Of a stretch of 64,000 bases of DNA, positions 3,146 to 11,218 are shown piece after piece. This DNA is from Acidobacteriota bacterium. GTDB lineage: Bacteria; Acidobacteriota; Terriglobia; Terriglobales; Acidobacteriaceae. Location: NCBI GenBank assembly GCA_025359885.1, contig JANYDG010000079.1, forward strand, positions 1-64,000, written 5' to 3'. The position numbers and the translations under genes were made by a program. The notes under the pieces were generated by a model, which was not told the DNA's origin, did not search any database, and saw nothing but the letters and a program-made list of their open reading frames with translations. Every line of letters begins with the position of its first letter. The stretch's first letter is position 1.

Positions 3146-6100
3146 TTGGCGGTTCTGAGGTCGTTTTTCTTGGCGGATTTTCTTTCACTTCTCAAGGATC
3201 GCGTGCTCGTCTATGACGGCGCGATGGGCACAACTCTGCAAAAGCACGCTCTGACGCTCGATGATTTCTGGGGCAAAGAGGGTTGCAACGAAATTCTCGT
3301 GCTCTCTCGCCCAGACGTGATTCGTCAGGTGCATGCCGCGTTTCTTGAGGCCGGCTGTGATGTGATCGAGACAGACAGCTTTGGTTCCGCAAGTATTGTG
3401 CTGGCTGAATACGAGCTCGAAGACCGTGCCCGCGAACTCAATGTCGCTGCGGCGCGCCTGGCCCGCGAAGTAGCCGACGCCTATTCCACGCCTGAAAAGC
3501 CCCGCTTTGTAGCCGGCTCGATGGGGCCAACGACCAAGCTGCCCTCGCTCGGCCACATCGGCTATGACGCCATGGCAGCCAGCTATCTCGAACAGGCCTC
3601 CGCGCTCATCGAGGGCGGCGTCGACATTCTGCTCATCGAAACCTGCCAGGACCTGCTGCAGGCCCGCATCGCCATGGCTGCCTGCCAGGATGCGATCAAC
3701 GCTGAGATTGCACGCGGTGGTCGCCGTGTCGCCCTGCAGGTGCAGGTAACGCTTGAGGCTACCGGAACCATGCTGCTGGGCTCTGAAATTGGCGCGGCAC
3801 TCGCCGTGCTTGAGGCCTTCCAGCCCGACGTCATCGGCCTCAACTGCGCCACTGGCCCGGAGGAGATGAACGACGCGGTCCGGTTTCTCTGCCAGAATTC
3901 GACGCTGCCGATTTCCGTGCTGCCCAATGCCGGCCTTCCGCAGAACGAGGGCGGTCGCGCCGTCTACAAGCTCACGCCGGCGGAGTTGGCCGCGCATCAG
4001 CGGCGGTTTGTCATTGAATACGGTGTCAGCGTCGTCGGCGGCTGCTGCGGAACGACCCCGGAGCACCTGCGCGCGGTCGCCGAGGCGGTCCAAGGCCTCA
4101 CGCCGCTTGTGCGCAATAACAAGCCGCAATCAGTCGTCGCAAGCGCCTTCGCCGCCGTTCCGCTGGAGATGGATGGGCAACCCGTCGTCATCGCCGAGGA
4201 GATGAATACGACCACGCGCCTCGAACACTTCCGCAACATGGTGCGAGAACAGGATTACGACGGCATCCTGACCATGGCCAAGCGGCTGGTCGGCGAAGGT
4301 TCGCAGATGCTTGACTTATGCTGCGCAATTGTCGGCGAAGATGAGCAGGCTTACATGAATGCGGTGTTGGAGAAGATCGCCACGCGCGTCCTGGCACCAA
4401 TTGTGGTCGATTCGACCGAGTCGGAAGTCATTGAGGAGGCGCTGAAGCGCATCCCGGGCAAGCCGATTATCAATTCCATCAATCTCGAAGACGGCGAAAA
4501 GCGCACCAGCAAGGTTCTTCCCATGGCCCGTCGCTACGGCGCAGCGGTGATAGCGCTCACCATCGACGAAGCCGGCATGGCGCTGACCGCCGATAAAAAA
4601 GTCGCCATTGCCCACCGCATCCACGATATGGCCATCCATCGCTACGGATTGCGCCCGCAGGACCTGATATTTGACCCGCTGACCTTGCCCATTTCGACGG
4701 GGCAGGAGGATTACCGTTCGGCGGCGATTGAGACGCTCGAAGCCGTCCGCCGCATCAAGCTTGAACTACCCGAGTGCAAGACCGTTCTCGGCGTCTCCAA
4801 CGTGTCCTTTGGCCTGAACGCCTATGCGCGCAGAGTGCTGAACTCGGTGTTCCTCAAGGAAGCTGTAGATCGCGGCCTCGATACGGCAATCGTGAATTAC
4901 TCGCGCATCTATCCCCTGTACAAGATCCCCGCGATGGAAGTGGAACTGGCGAGAAAGCTAATTTTCCAGGACTGGGGACCCGGTGGATCGACTGCGGAGG
5001 CGCGGGTTGATCCCTTGCAGGCGTACATGGCCTACTTCACCAGCCTCACCAAAGGCTCGGTGCAGGAAGACGTGGTTGAAGTAGAAAATCTGACCATCGA
5101 AGACCGGCTCAAGCAACTGGTCATCCGCGGTGAGCGTACCATTGGCCTGGGCGAGAATAAGCAATCCCTGGAAGAGGCGCTTGAAGCGGCGTTAGCGACT
5201 TACACGCCTCTACAACTCATCAATGATGTGTTGCTCGACGCCATGAAGACGGTCGGAGAGTTGTTCGGATCACGCAAGATGCAGCTGCCTTCGGTGCTCG
5301 ATTCCGCGGCAGTCATGAAAGCGGCGGTCGCCTACCTTGAGCCAAAGATGGAGAAGTCTGGCGGCGGCGGCAAGGGCACCATGGTTTTGGCCACGGTCAA
5401 GGGTGACGTGCACGATATCGGCAAAAATCTGGTGGATATCATCCTGACCAACAACGGCTACCGGGTGATTAACCTGGGCATCAAGCAACCTTCAGATGCA
5501 ATTGTGCACGCAGCCAGAGAAAATAAGACCGACGCTATCGGATTGAGTGGCTTGCTCGTCAAATCGACTCTGGAGATGAAGTACGTGCTGCAGGATCTGG
5601 AGCGGCTGGGCCTCGAAATTCCGGTAATCTGCGGCGGCGCGGCACTTACGCGTAAGTATGTGGAAGAGGACTTGCGCCAGGAATACGCAGGTCCCGTCTA
5701 CTATGCAGAGGACGCTTTTGCCGGGCTGCACATCATCGCCGATCTCACCAGCAGCGATGCGGCGGTTCGGGATGCGCGAACTGCCGAAGGCAAGACCGTA
5801 AAAATCTACGCCAAGGGCAGGTCTGCATCGCTTGAATTGGAGTCGGTGGAGCTAACCGCAAACGGGCGCTCTCCGGCAATTGAAGCCGCATCGCGAATTC
5901 CGGTGCCTGCTCATTGGGGTGCGCGAATTTACACAGACTACCGGCTTGATGATCTGTTCCCGTATTTAAATGAGACCGCACTCTTCAAGAACCAGTGGCA
6001 ATTGAAGACGGCGGCCCAGGGGGACTACCTGCGCATCGTCGAGGAAAAATATCGGCCCATTCTGGAGAAGCTGAAGGAGGAGGTGAAGGCTGCAGGGTGC

Positions 6101-6697
6101 TTCCATCCCAAGTCGGTCATCGGCTTCTATCCATGCAACAGCCAGGGCAACGATGTCATCGTTTATGATGCTCTCGATCAGGATCGGGAGATTGAACGAT
6201 TCACGTTTCCTCGGCAAGCCCAGGGACGACGGCTCTCCATTGCCGACTATTTCGAGCCGATTCGAACGGATGGAACAGCAAAAAAAGACGTAATTGGCTT
6301 CACGATTGTCACAATCGGCGATCAGGCATCACTAGAAACTCAGAAGTTGTTCGAAGCGGGTGATTTCACCCGGTATTTATACCTGCACGGGCTTTCGGTG
6401 GAGACGGCAGAGGCTTTGGCCGAGTACGTTCACAAGCAGGCCAGGCAGTTTTTGGGAATTGGTAGCGCAGATTCTGCAAAAGTAACCGATCTTTTTCACC
6501 AGAAGTACCAAGGTTCGCGTTACTCTTTCGGATATCCCGCCTGTCCGAACCTTGAGGACCAGGCGAAGATATTTAGATTGCTGGAGCCTGAAAAGTCAAT
6601 TGGGGTGCGATTGACCGAGGGCTACCACCTGGAACCAGAGCAAAGTACCAACGCGATTCTGGTGCATCATCCGCAGGCAAAGTACTTTGTGGCGTGA
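3146..6697 (+). CDS. metH: Cobalamin-dependent methionine synthase
   Basis: Transfers the methyl group of 5-methyltetrahydrofolate to homocysteine via methylcobalamin. At about 1183 residues it has all modules: a homocysteine-binding barrel (residues 1-310) with zinc ligands in GLNCATGP and GGCCGTTPEH; a pterin-binding barrel (about 345-600); the B12 cap; the cobalamin domain with DVHDIG starting near residue 754, whose His is the lower cobalt ligand; and a reactivation domain (about 900-1183) for SAM/flavodoxin repair. The start is uncertain: a TTG at 3146, with other TTG/GTG codons up to 3202. The upstream gap shows neither a SAM nor a cobalamin riboswitch. The stop overlaps a possible GTG of the HEAT-repeat gene, suggesting co-transcription. 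Confidence 0.95.
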   Translation: MAVLRSFFLADFLSLLKDRVLVYDGAMGTTLQKHALTLDDFWGKEGCNEILVLSRPDVIRQVHAAFLEAGCDVIETDSFGSASIVLAEYELEDRARELNVAAARLAREVADAYSTPEKPRFVAGSMGPTTKLPSLGHIGYDAMAASYLEQASALIEGGVDILLIETCQDLLQARIAMAACQDAINAEIARGGRRVALQVQVTLEATGTMLLGSEIGAALAVLEAFQPDVIGLNCATGPEEMNDAVRFLCQNSTLPISVLPNAGLPQNEGGRAVYKLTPAELAAHQRRFVIEYGVSVVGGCCGTTPEHLRAVAEAVQGLTPLVRNNKPQSVVASAFAAVPLEMDGQPVVIAEEMNTTTRLEHFRNMVREQDYDGILTMAKRLVGEGSQMLDLCCAIVGEDEQAYMNAVLEKIATRVLAPIVVDSTESEVIEEALKRIPGKPIINSINLEDGEKRTSKVLPMARRYGAAVIALTIDEAGMALTADKKVAIAHRIHDMAIHRYGLRPQDLIFDPLTLPISTGQEDYRSAAIETLEAVRRIKLELPECKTVLGVSNVSFGLNAYARRVLNSVFLKEAVDRGLDTAIVNYSRIYPLYKIPAMEVELARKLIFQDWGPGGSTAEARVDPLQAYMAYFTSLTKGSVQEDVVEVENLTIEDRLKQLVIRGERTIGLGENKQSLEEALEAALATYTPLQLINDVLLDAMKTVGELFGSRKMQLPSVLDSAAVMKAAVAYLEPKMEKSGGGGKGTMVLATVKGDVHDIGKNLVDIILTNNGYRVINLGIKQPSDAIVHAARENKTDAIGLSGLLVKSTLEMKYVLQDLERLGLEIPVICGGAALTRKYVEEDLRQEYAGPVYYAEDAFAGLHIIADLTSSDAAVRDARTAEGKTVKIYAKGRSASLELESVELTANGRSPAIEAASRIPVPAHWGARIYTDYRLDDLFPYLNETALFKNQWQLKTAAQGDYLRIVEEKYRPILEKLKEEVKAAGCFHPKSVIGFYPCNSQGNDVIVYDALDQDREIERFTFPRQAQGRRLSIADYFEPIRTDGTAKKDVIGFTIVTIGDQASLETQKLFEAGDFTRYLYLHGLSVETAEALAEYVHKQARQFLGIGSADSAKVTDLFHQKYQGSRYSFGYPACPNLEDQAKIFRLLEPEKSIGVRLTEGYHLEPEQSTNAILVHHPQAKYFVA

Positions 6698-9279: not shown

Positions 9280-9418
9280 GTGCCAACATCTCCGCTTGCG
9301 GGCAGAACCGTTCAAACGCGGATTGGCACCGTGTGCTGCAGAGCTTGTTGCGCGTGCGTAGCGACTGTGGTATCACAGATATATATTCTGGTTCGGTCCT
9401 GACGGGGTCGAGCCTGGA

Positions 9419-9524
9419 TTTCATGAAGAGTGGTTGAGGGACGAGCCCTTTGACGCCACGACAACCGGCCGGAGCAATTCTGGATCACGGTGTCAACTCT
9501 CGCCCGGAAACGGGGGACATGAGA
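9419..9524 (+). promoter_or_regulatory. SAM-I (S-box) riboswitch aptamer
   Basis: The sequence follows the S-box core in order: P1 5' strand TTCATG, AAGAG, GAGGGA, GCCC, GA-GCC, ACAACC, then GGTGTCAA and the closing CATGAG. CATGAG pairs fully with TTCATG (one G-U) to form P1. SAM-I aptamers bind S-adenosylmethionine and shut off methionine and sulfur genes when SAM is high. Here it precedes a threonine-synthase-like gene by about 130 bases. Confidence 0.88.
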
Positions 9525-9628
9525 TTCGAAAAATGCTTCTGGGCCGGGGGTTCAGGGCGTTTTGCAGACGGAATCCTCTCAAGTTCACTCCTCAGTGGAG
9601 TCGGTTTAGGCGTACTCGTTTCCGGCCG

Positions 9629-9647
9629 CTCTCGCATACTGCGAGGG
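9629..9647 (+). promoter_or_regulatory. Shine-Dalgarno-sequestering hairpin (riboswitch expression platform)
   Basis: CTCGCA (9631-9636) pairs with TGCGAG (9640-9645) around a three-base loop; 9629-9630 pairs with 9646-9647 to extend it. The 3' arm contains the GAGGG that serves as Shine-Dalgarno for the TTG at 9652. This is the geometry expected of a translational OFF switch. A second small hairpin (ACTCC-TCAGT-GGAGT) lies upstream and may take part in the alternative fold. Confidence 0.6.
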
Positions 9648-9651
9648 AACT

Positions 9652-10947
9652 TTGACGACGGCTTACGAACTGCGATGTCGAGAGTGTGGCAAAAGCTATG
9701 GGAACCAGCCGCTTTCGATCTGTGATGACTGTTTTTCTCCCCTGGAAGTCGACTTTGACCTGGACTACGCGCGCAGCCGCTTCACGCGCGACGCCATCCA
9801 GGCCGGCCCGTTAAATATGTGGCGCTATCGTACGCTGCTCCCGGTTGCCGACAGCTACGTTCCCACCACGCCCACCGGCCTCACGCCGCTCATCGAAGCT
9901 CCCCGGCTCGGTGCGCGCATCGGCGCAAAAAATCTCTATATCAAAAATGACGCCGTCTGCCTGCCTACCCTCAGCTTCAAAGACCGCGTCGTTGCCGTCG
10001 CCCTCGCCAACGCCGTTTCCTTCGGATTCGACACCGTCGGCTGCTCGTCTACCGGCAATCTCGCCAACGCCGTCGCCGCCGGAGCGGCCCGCCTCGGCTT
10101 GAAAACCTACATCCTCGTCCCAGGCGACCTCGAACCGGCCAAGATTCTCAATACCCAGGTCTACGGCGCAAATCTGATCCGGATTGACGGCAACTACGAC
10201 CACTGCAACCGCCTCTGCTCGCAGATTGCAGAGAAGTATAACTGGGGCTTCGTCAACGTCAACCTGCGCCCCTACTACGCCGAGGGTTCGAAGTCGGTCG
10301 GCTTTGAGATCGCCGAGCAGCTTGGCTGGCGGCTACCTGACAATGTTGTCGTGCCTATGGCGGGCGGCTCGCTGATTACCAAGATTCGCAAGGCTTTCAA
10401 GGAACTCGTCGCCCTCGGCCTCGTTGCCGACAAGCATGTGAAATTCTTCGGCGCCCAGGCATCCGGCTGCTCGCCGATCTCAACCGCTGTGCGCAATGGC
10501 GCAGACGGCATTGAGCCGCAACGCCCCAACACAATCGCCCGCTCGCTGGCGATTGGTAACCCGGCCGACGGTCCCTATGCGATTCGCGCTATTCGCGACT
10601 CGGGCGGCTGGGCTGAAGATGTTTCAGACGTTGAGATCGTCTCGGGAATCCAGGAACTCGCCGAAACCGAAGGCGTTTTCACTGAAACGGCAGGCGGCGT
10701 GACTACCGCGGTTACTGCCAGGCTCTACGCCAGCGGCCGCATCAAGGCTGGCGATCTGACCGTAAGCTGCATCACCGGCAACGGCCTCAAGACGACAGAC
10801 GTGCTCCAGGGTGCCTACGAGCACCACGACGCTGTTCGGCCGCGTATGGCTGACTTTGCGGCTTATATTGAGCAACAAGATAAACAACATGACAAGCAGC
10901 AGGAGAGTCGGGCCCTCAGCCTGGCAGGAGCGGTCTATGCCGATTAA
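9652..10947 (+). CDS. Threonine-synthase-like PLP enzyme under SAM riboswitch control
   Basis: A 431-residue fold-type II PLP enzyme. It has an N-terminal zinc-ribbon-like segment (CRECGKSYG ... CDDC), then the threonine synthase core with PLP lysine in LSFKDR, the cofactor loop GCSSTGNLANA, and AGGSL. Canonical threonine synthase converts O-phosphohomoserine to threonine. Two features argue for another or additional role: a SAM-I riboswitch sits in the leader, and the 3' end overlaps by 11 bases a gene for a CysO/ThiS-type sulfur carrier. By analogy with CysM/CysO it might use a protein thiocarboxylate as sulfur donor, for example to make homocysteine; that is inference. It starts at a TTG within a sequestered ribosome site. 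Conventional ThrC remains the default annotation. Confidence 0.85.
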   Translation: MTTAYELRCRECGKSYGNQPLSICDDCFSPLEVDFDLDYARSRFTRDAIQAGPLNMWRYRTLLPVADSYVPTTPTGLTPLIEAPRLGARIGAKNLYIKNDAVCLPTLSFKDRVVAVALANAVSFGFDTVGCSSTGNLANAVAAGAARLGLKTYILVPGDLEPAKILNTQVYGANLIRIDGNYDHCNRLCSQIAEKYNWGFVNVNLRPYYAEGSKSVGFEIAEQLGWRLPDNVVVPMAGGSLITKIRKAFKELVALGLVADKHVKFFGAQASGCSPISTAVRNGADGIEPQRPNTIARSLAIGNPADGPYAIRAIRDSGGWAEDVSDVEIVSGIQELAETEGVFTETAGGVTTAVTARLYASGRIKAGDLTVSCITGNGLKTTDVLQGAYEHHDAVRPRMADFAAYIEQQDKQHDKQQESRALSLAGAVYAD

Positions 10948-11218
10948 GGTTCTATTGCCTAACGCGTTTCAAAAGCACACCAACAACGTGCGCGAAATCG
11001 AAAGCACCGCCGCCAATCTGCCCGAGTTGGTCAAAGACATGGAAGCCCGCTTCCCCGCACTCCGCCAGCACCTGCGCGGCGAAGACGGCCAGGTCCGCAA
11101 GTTCATCAACTTCTACGTCAACGAAGAAGACATCCGCTTCCTCGGCAATGAGGGCTATGCCTTCCAGGATGGGGATGAAGTGCTTGTGATTCCCTCGATT
11201 GCCGGGGGCTCGGTCTAA
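10937..11218 (+). CDS. CysO/ThiS/MoaD-like sulfur-carrier protein
   Basis: A 93-residue beta-grasp protein. Its sequence pattern parallels mycobacterial CysO: an N-terminal IKVLLPNAFQKHT strand, a helix with LPELVKDMEARFP, then RKFINFYVNEEDIRFL and the C-terminal DGDEVLVIPSIAGG. In this family the terminal Gly-Gly is adenylated and converted to a thiocarboxylate. Here two residues (Ser-Val) follow the Gly-Gly, so a protease would have to expose it, as with trimmed carriers that use a JAMM-type peptidase. ATG at 10937 overlaps the preceding PLP gene by 11 bases and has GGCAGGAG six bases upstream, so the two are translationally coupled. No activating or trimming gene is nearby. Confidence 0.88.
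   Translation: MPIKVLLPNAFQKHTNNVREIESTAANLPELVKDMEARFPALRQHLRGEDGQVRKFINFYVNEEDIRFLGNEGYAFQDGDEVLVIPSIAGGSV

Follow-up and report, generated by a model that had tools for sequence, protein, structure and literature searches.

In the CysO-CysM-Mec system of mycobacteria, a protein thiocarboxylate is the sulfur donor to a PLP enzyme. MetM of Streptomyces is said to act directly on O-phosphohomoserine together with thiocarboxylated MetO, and the enzyme of the Wolinella HcyS route is reportedly of the MetY (Cys/Met gamma) type. PMC12172450 credits Hasebe et al. 2024 (AEM 90:e01247-24) with describing the homocysteine synthase MetM in Streptomyces, and gives it cyanobacterial homologues, a neighboring sulfur carrier gene, metO, and, in S. 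albulus, a SAM riboswitch upstream. The same paper, PMC12172450, reports on ThrC of Microcystis, which shares 51.6% identity with MetM: in vitro this homologue forms threonine from O-phosphohomoserine and has threonine deaminase activity, it lacks the riboswitch, methionine in cells was not raised by it, and the authors doubt that it has the full MetM role there. The Wolinella HcyS/MetY protein-thiocarboxylate route of Krishnamoorthy and Begley 2011 is cited in PMC5764234, where NIL domains are also connected with a further route to homocysteine.

We compared these systems with a locus in the window, the whole 64,000-nucleotide stretch that was analyzed, which belongs to the genome of an acidobacterial soil bacterium (G000; a 4.2-Mb assembly of 125 contigs, 94.8% complete). 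The string "acidobacteri" does not occur in the available text of PMC12172450, and PMC12452182, as far as its text was available, covers Bacillota and holds nothing further on the metM gene. A literature search, outside which the Hasebe et al. 2024 text lies, returned no paper joining Acidobacteria, methionine biosynthesis and a SAM riboswitch. The route is in print already; what the acidobacterial locus contributes is carriers with tails, a strong tie to the riboswitch and a genus in which two routes occur.

A SAM-I riboswitch aptamer occupies positions 9418..9525 of the plus strand. It matches the whole of Rfam model RF00162 (positions 1-108) with 71.4 bits against a gathering score of 44.4 (E 1e-14) and aligns with 15 other metM-associated copies, one of them actinobacterial. 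No other match in the 64-kb window reaches the gathering threshold, and this one is therefore not a chance hit. Downstream on the same strand lie a metM-like gene (9652..10947) and a metO-like gene (10937..11218). The original prediction of a complete SAM-I core followed by a TTG-started threonine-synthase-type PLP gene, itself overlapping a 93-residue CysO/ThiS-like gene by 11 bases, was borne out by the Rfam search, the open reading frames, Pfam and NCBIfam. Its further proposal, that O-phosphohomoserine and the carrier thiocarboxylate would yield homocysteine under SAM control, gains support at the level of sequence from a clade, gene order and riboswitch that match the published route. Because of the same three features, we place the window pair in the MetM/MetO family, and we consider it probable (roughly 85%) that the locus is an acidobacterial form of the MetM/MetO pathway making homocysteine.

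The metM-like gene encodes a fold-type II PLP enzyme of 431 residues, predicted to be an O-phosphohomoserine-dependent homocysteine synthase. The codon aligned to its TTG start is GTG, TTG or ATG in close orthologues. The product matches Pfam PALP (E 3e-68) and scores 275 bits with the NCBIfam thrC model TIGR00260; since the cut-off is 167, a "threonine synthase" annotation is to be expected. It falls below the cut-off of NF006050 (292 versus 303). The nearest solved structures are threonine synthases. Sequence reading places a zinc-ribbon-like N-terminal stretch of the form CxxC...CxxC at residues 9-27 (9676..9732, plus strand), and alignment with solved ThrC chains places Lys110 (9979..9981, plus strand) in the motif SFKDRVV, corresponding to SFKDRG in canonical ThrC; Lys110 is the predicted PLP lysine, a role that we presume.

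Despite the profile match, the enzyme separates from canonical threonine synthases. ThrC-like paralogues in related genomes are only 31-38% identical to it. For the tree, we combined 23 ThrC-type rows with a selection of 34 out of 82 MetM-type rows, the MetM-type label having been given beforehand by identity (at least 50% to the window enzyme). A single branch (100/96) parts the two types, with the Nonomuraea and cyanobacterial homologues on the MetM side; one row retained in spite of a very long branch, L018_ThrC_1, is probably no ThrC. Forty-three alignment columns separate the 82 MetM rows from the 23 ThrC rows; in each, one residue fills at least 93% of the MetM rows but no more than 15% of the ThrC rows. 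They include Val113 for Gly (SFKDRG becoming SFKDRV), Tyr209 for Arg, Ser213 for Gln/Lys and Thr381 for Asp/Tyr; Arg206 is gained in MetM. The window enzyme thus lies outside the ThrC grouping and has neither SFKDRG nor the Arg at the Tyr209 position. As that Arg, which we take to be a phosphate ligand in Thermus ThrC, is replaced, the phosphate may be held differently in MetM. Fold family and presumed substrate are shared with canonical ThrC; a clade of its own, the 43 differing columns, SAM control and a carrier partner set the window enzyme apart.

The arrangement of the genes extends well beyond the window. We took the best 80 of 387 stretches encoding homologues, which are 53-95% identical to the window enzyme and come from Acidobacteriota, Cyanobacteriota, Nitrospinota, Zetaproteobacteria and others; the closest named records among them are Acidobacteriota. 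The carrier gene lies directly downstream of metM in 76 of these 80 loci, its open frame starting between -79 and +450 nt from the metM stop. Two of the other four are at a contig edge (L062 and L065), one (L081) has neither carrier nor MoeB, and the fourth (L042) has MoeB instead. This last locus, on a Terriglobia chromosome, has riboswitch and metM with a MoeB-like gene in the carrier's place (L042:11180-12264). MoeB occurs inside 14 and CysM inside 10 of the 80 loci, mostly just 3' of metM-metO, in Nitrospinota, Zetaproteobacteria, Blastocatellia and others. A profile for JAB peptidase built here found none in the 80 metM loci.

The same order recurs in Nonomuraea (Actinomycetota), in which a SAM-I riboswitch (68.7 bits) precedes a MetM homologue 52.6% identical to the window enzyme over 94% of the query, followed by a carrier ending in AGG. 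A groEL-like gene lies 3' of that carrier, as is presumably the setting in Streptomyces too. Likeness to S. albulus MetM/MetO was judged through this Nonomuraea proxy (52.6%) and the published Microcystis-MetM identity (51.6%; PMC12172450, available part): a ThrC-like enzyme, an adjacent carrier and an upstream SAM riboswitch are common to the window, the Nonomuraea locus and the Streptomyces system as the available text presents it, from which the window differs by a two-residue tail after the carrier's GG and by the presence of metX-metY in the same genome. The Microcystis ThrC/metO-like pair is of the same clade type with an adjacent carrier, and cyanobacterial homologues share 53-56% identity with the window enzyme; unlike the Microcystis pair, as described in the accessible text, the window has a riboswitch, and cyanobacterial carriers end at GG. 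In the Wolinella HcyS/MetY route, as far as its citing source is available, a carrier likewise feeds homocysteine synthesis, but the window partner is a PALP fold-type II, ThrC-like enzyme outside the Cys/Met gamma family. In L070 the carrier forms one protein with a ThiF/MoeB domain, and in L066 with a NIL domain; the latter fusion is telling because NIL domains tie to homocysteine synthesis in the available text of PMC5764234.

These observations bear on whether MetM could act chiefly as an additional threonine synthase, perhaps with a side activity as threonine deaminase, its neighboring carrier serving another enzyme. The score over the TIGR00260 cut-off would agree with such a role, as would the in vitro threonine formation and threonine deamination by the Microcystis homologue in the available text of PMC12172450. 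We regard it as improbable in view of SAM control, the coupling to a carrier gene in 76 of 80 loci, the carrier-MoeB and carrier-NIL fusions, the exclusion with MetX (below) and the two other thrC-like genes of the host genome, one of them beside thrB. The latter pair adjoins on contig 36 (TIGR00260 274 versus 167 for thrC; TIGR00191 198 versus 168 for thrB). A third threonine-synthase-like gene, on contig 86 (L119:6580-7845), scores 524 bits with NF006050 against 303.

The host genome also has conventional methionine genes. Intact metY (442 residues) and metX (399 residues) are adjacent on contig 108, scoring 733 versus 726 with NF006096 and 340 versus 331 with NF001209; the TIGR01392 score of 346 is below the cut-off of 500. 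The possibility that G000 lacks conventional methionine genes was consequently rejected. As both routes are present, MetM is not the sole apparent route in G000, which counts against a strict need for it there. The original prediction had asked whether a second thrC exists, and it does, beside thrB. It had also held that a genome combining complete conventional methionine genes with the window enzyme as sole threonine synthase would speak against it; the first half was found, in the complete metX-metY pair, and the second was not.

In the class at large, a genome with metM seldom has MetX as well. Of 200 genomes drawn from the class (completeness of 90% or more and contamination of 5% or less in 197), scored for metM at E 1e-90 and for metX with one query from the host's own genome at E 1e-60, 106 had metM only, 49 metX only, 8 both and 37 neither; G000 is one of the 8. 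Within its family, metX was present in 6 of 40 metM genomes versus 10 of 13 without metM (Fisher 7.7e-5, kinship ignored). Closer to the host, we analyzed 31 genomes (G000 and 30 relatives), 18 of them with a close metM. All 15 that belong to its genus have a MetX-like gene (two as partial matches), and six of these also have metM. Eight of the 18 metM relatives (G018, G019, G020, G023-G026 and G030, the last only 73% complete) gave no match to MetX at E 1e-60 and none at all to MetA; MetA was scored in these 31 genomes and matched in 5. Enzymes of PF01053 are present in all 31, which we count against the MetM reading. Homocysteine might alternatively be made from O-acetyl- or O-succinyl-homoserine, MetX being shared with MetY in G000. 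We consider this very improbable, more so than a threonine synthase role: metX is indeed present in G000, but 106 of 114 metM genomes in the draw show no MetX at E 1e-60, and the window enzyme falls in the O-phosphohomoserine-using threonine synthase group.

On the MetM/MetO reading, many genes annotated as "threonine synthase" are probably homocysteine synthases, and methionine synthesis would therefore be misread in many genomes seemingly without metX. A SAM riboswitch before metM is an independent sign of role and a simple way to distinguish MetM from ThrC.

The metO-like gene begins with ATG at 10937 and ends with its stop at 11218, encoding a 93-residue sulfur carrier of the ThiS/CysO type (Pfam ThiS, E 3.5e-11). 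It matches PDB chains 4n6e_B and 3dwg_C, the latter at E 2e-15 and presumably M. tuberculosis CysO. The window carrier is thus close to the CysO of the mycobacterial CysO-CysM-Mec system; its partner, however, is of the ThrC type rather than CysM, and cysteine is not the expected product. A point absent from the original prediction is that the carrier ends in Gly-Gly-Ser-Val (11204..11215, plus strand) rather than Gly-Gly; Ser-Val is presumably cut off before thiocarboxylation. Reading the ends off the sequence rows, with SIAGG included among the GG endings, we found residues beyond GG in 29 of 34 acidobacterial carriers and termination at GG in five (L012, L017, L023, L024 and L033). GG is the terminus in all 29 cyanobacterial carriers; of the 13 remaining, with fusions counted in, 11 extend further, 1 stops at GG and 1 is truncated by the end of its contig. 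The acidobacterial carriers with residues after GG probably need trimming, which is possibly new. Six (L016, L018, L019, L020, L021 and L022) have a cysteine-rich tail after GG with an end like CCSYCGQEECxC; sulfur loading would first require removal of this tail.

Genes that could serve the carrier are found on contig 34 of the host, where a JAB peptidase gene adjoins a MoeB-rhodanese gene with no carrier gene between them. The same cluster in an order relative (G023) reads cysM-JAB-cysO-moeB. At E 0.001, no second CysO-like carrier was found in G000, the sole match being the window MetO. A JAB-MoeB pair without CysO was rejected as a marker of metM genomes, as it also occurs in same-genus genomes that have no metM (e.g. 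G007).

MetO could also be pictured as a general sulfur carrier, for cysteine or other thiolations, with MetM as one of several clients. Ten of the 80 loci have CysM close to metM-metO, and the missing second carrier in G000 points the same way; on the other hand, a distinct cysM-JAB-cysO-moeB cluster persists in order relatives, and the SAM control of metO suits methionine. We find this rather unlikely, if less so than either alternative considered above, and it can be compatible with the MetM/MetO pathway as the best explanation. A more specific suggestion, somewhat likelier and still tentative, is that acidobacterial MetO is a pro-carrier whose tail (Ser-Val in G000, and up to a cysteine-rich stretch of about 20-40 residues in some genera) would be cut by the JAB peptidase before loading by MoeB. 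As part of this suggestion, the host genus would have two parallel alternatives, one under SAM control and fed by the carrier, the other through MetX/MetY and fed by sulfide, and one carrier might serve methionine and other sulfur needs, because G000 lacks the cysO that order relatives have between JAB and moeB. The tailed carriers and the double routes in the genus raise testable questions on carrier activation and on preference over free sulfide.

The riboswitch, the gene pair, the separate clade, the gene order across phyla and the thrB, thrC, moeB and JAB genes on other contigs of G000 are computed observations. In the pathway proposed, the C-terminal Gly-Gly of MetO would be adenylated by a MoeB-type adenylyltransferase and then loaded with sulfur as a thiocarboxylate. 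MetM would eliminate phosphate from O-phosphohomoserine made by ThrB and add the carrier sulfur, yielding homocysteine, which MetH would methylate to methionine. High SAM would turn the operon off through the SAM-I riboswitch. We infer that the MoeB and JAB proteins of contig 34 are those used; against specificity for this pathway, JAB and MoeB also occur together without a carrier in metM-free genomes.

A full-length metH for B12-dependent methionine synthase lies upstream at 3146..6697 on the plus strand (TIGR02082, 1224 bits versus 1011, and Pfam domains). Its product would be the consumer of homocysteine, and we treat the gene as a neighbor of the operon. The original prediction had placed metH 3 kb upstream and taken it as part of the explanation. 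The gene is real, but its end lies 2.7 kb from the riboswitch with two other open reading frames between, and the link is weaker than stated, metH being a separate gene; its place upstream is nevertheless kept in 3 of the 80 named relatives (L011, L017 and L023).

The riboswitch accompanies metM in many genomes. SAM-I occurs once in each of 17 of the 31 genomes. In 16 it immediately precedes metM; in G030 it neighbors a thrC-like gene on a different contig. SAM-I was sought and not found in G153 and G018, both metM genomes of the host's family. The class draw, under stricter filters, gave 103 SAM-I copies in 96 genomes, 75 of which sit 94-272 nt before metM and 28 elsewhere. SAM-I is upstream in 75 of the 114 metM genomes of the draw and absent directly upstream in 39. 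Within the host's family it is directly upstream in 39 of 40 metM genomes and in none of the 13 without metM. A model made from 16 copies recovered 27 riboswitches in the 80 named loci, none of them farther than about 300 nt ahead of the metM match; they belong to three Zetaproteobacteria, L042 and 23 of L011-L034, with L011-L013 matching by construction because the same records were used in building the model. A search with this model found no SAM-I in 32 cyanobacterial metM loci.

Between the aptamer and the metM start of the window, a scan found no intrinsic terminator, and translational control is therefore preferred. Folding gave a possible hairpin, CTCTCGCA-TAC-TGCGAGGG, at approximately 9626..9647 on the plus strand, over the putative ribosome-binding site GAGGGA, which suggests control of translation. 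The hairpin is statistically weak alone, as shuffling the window leader 300 times gave a stem as long in 14 cases. A stem of at least 6 pairs covers the ribosome-binding-site region in 11 of 16 leaders, that of L019 being a different stem from the others; L014, L015, L017 and L023 have stems of 4-5 pairs and L013 has none. These 16 were taken from 28 leaders, 9 being left out for want of a start codon at the extrapolated place and L042, L055 and L056 as members of other lineages. By eye, the zetaproteobacterial L055 and L056 have a terminator-like hairpin and T-run just 3' of the riboswitch, and transcriptional control seems likely there, in contrast to the window.

Nine of the 28 SAM-I copies that lie elsewhere than before metM in the class relatives were inspected. 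L176 and L182 have nothing clear behind the riboswitch. It precedes a Cys/Met gamma enzyme in L175, an amino-acid kinase in L179 and, by eye, in L178, and, in L174, another ThiS-like gene accompanied by an amino-acid kinase/ACT gene. In L177, L180 and L181 it stands before class-V aminotransferases resembling cysteine desulfurases, followed in some by ThiF or PALP genes; SAM control of such desulfurase-ThiF-PALP clusters would fit sulfur supply to a carrier.
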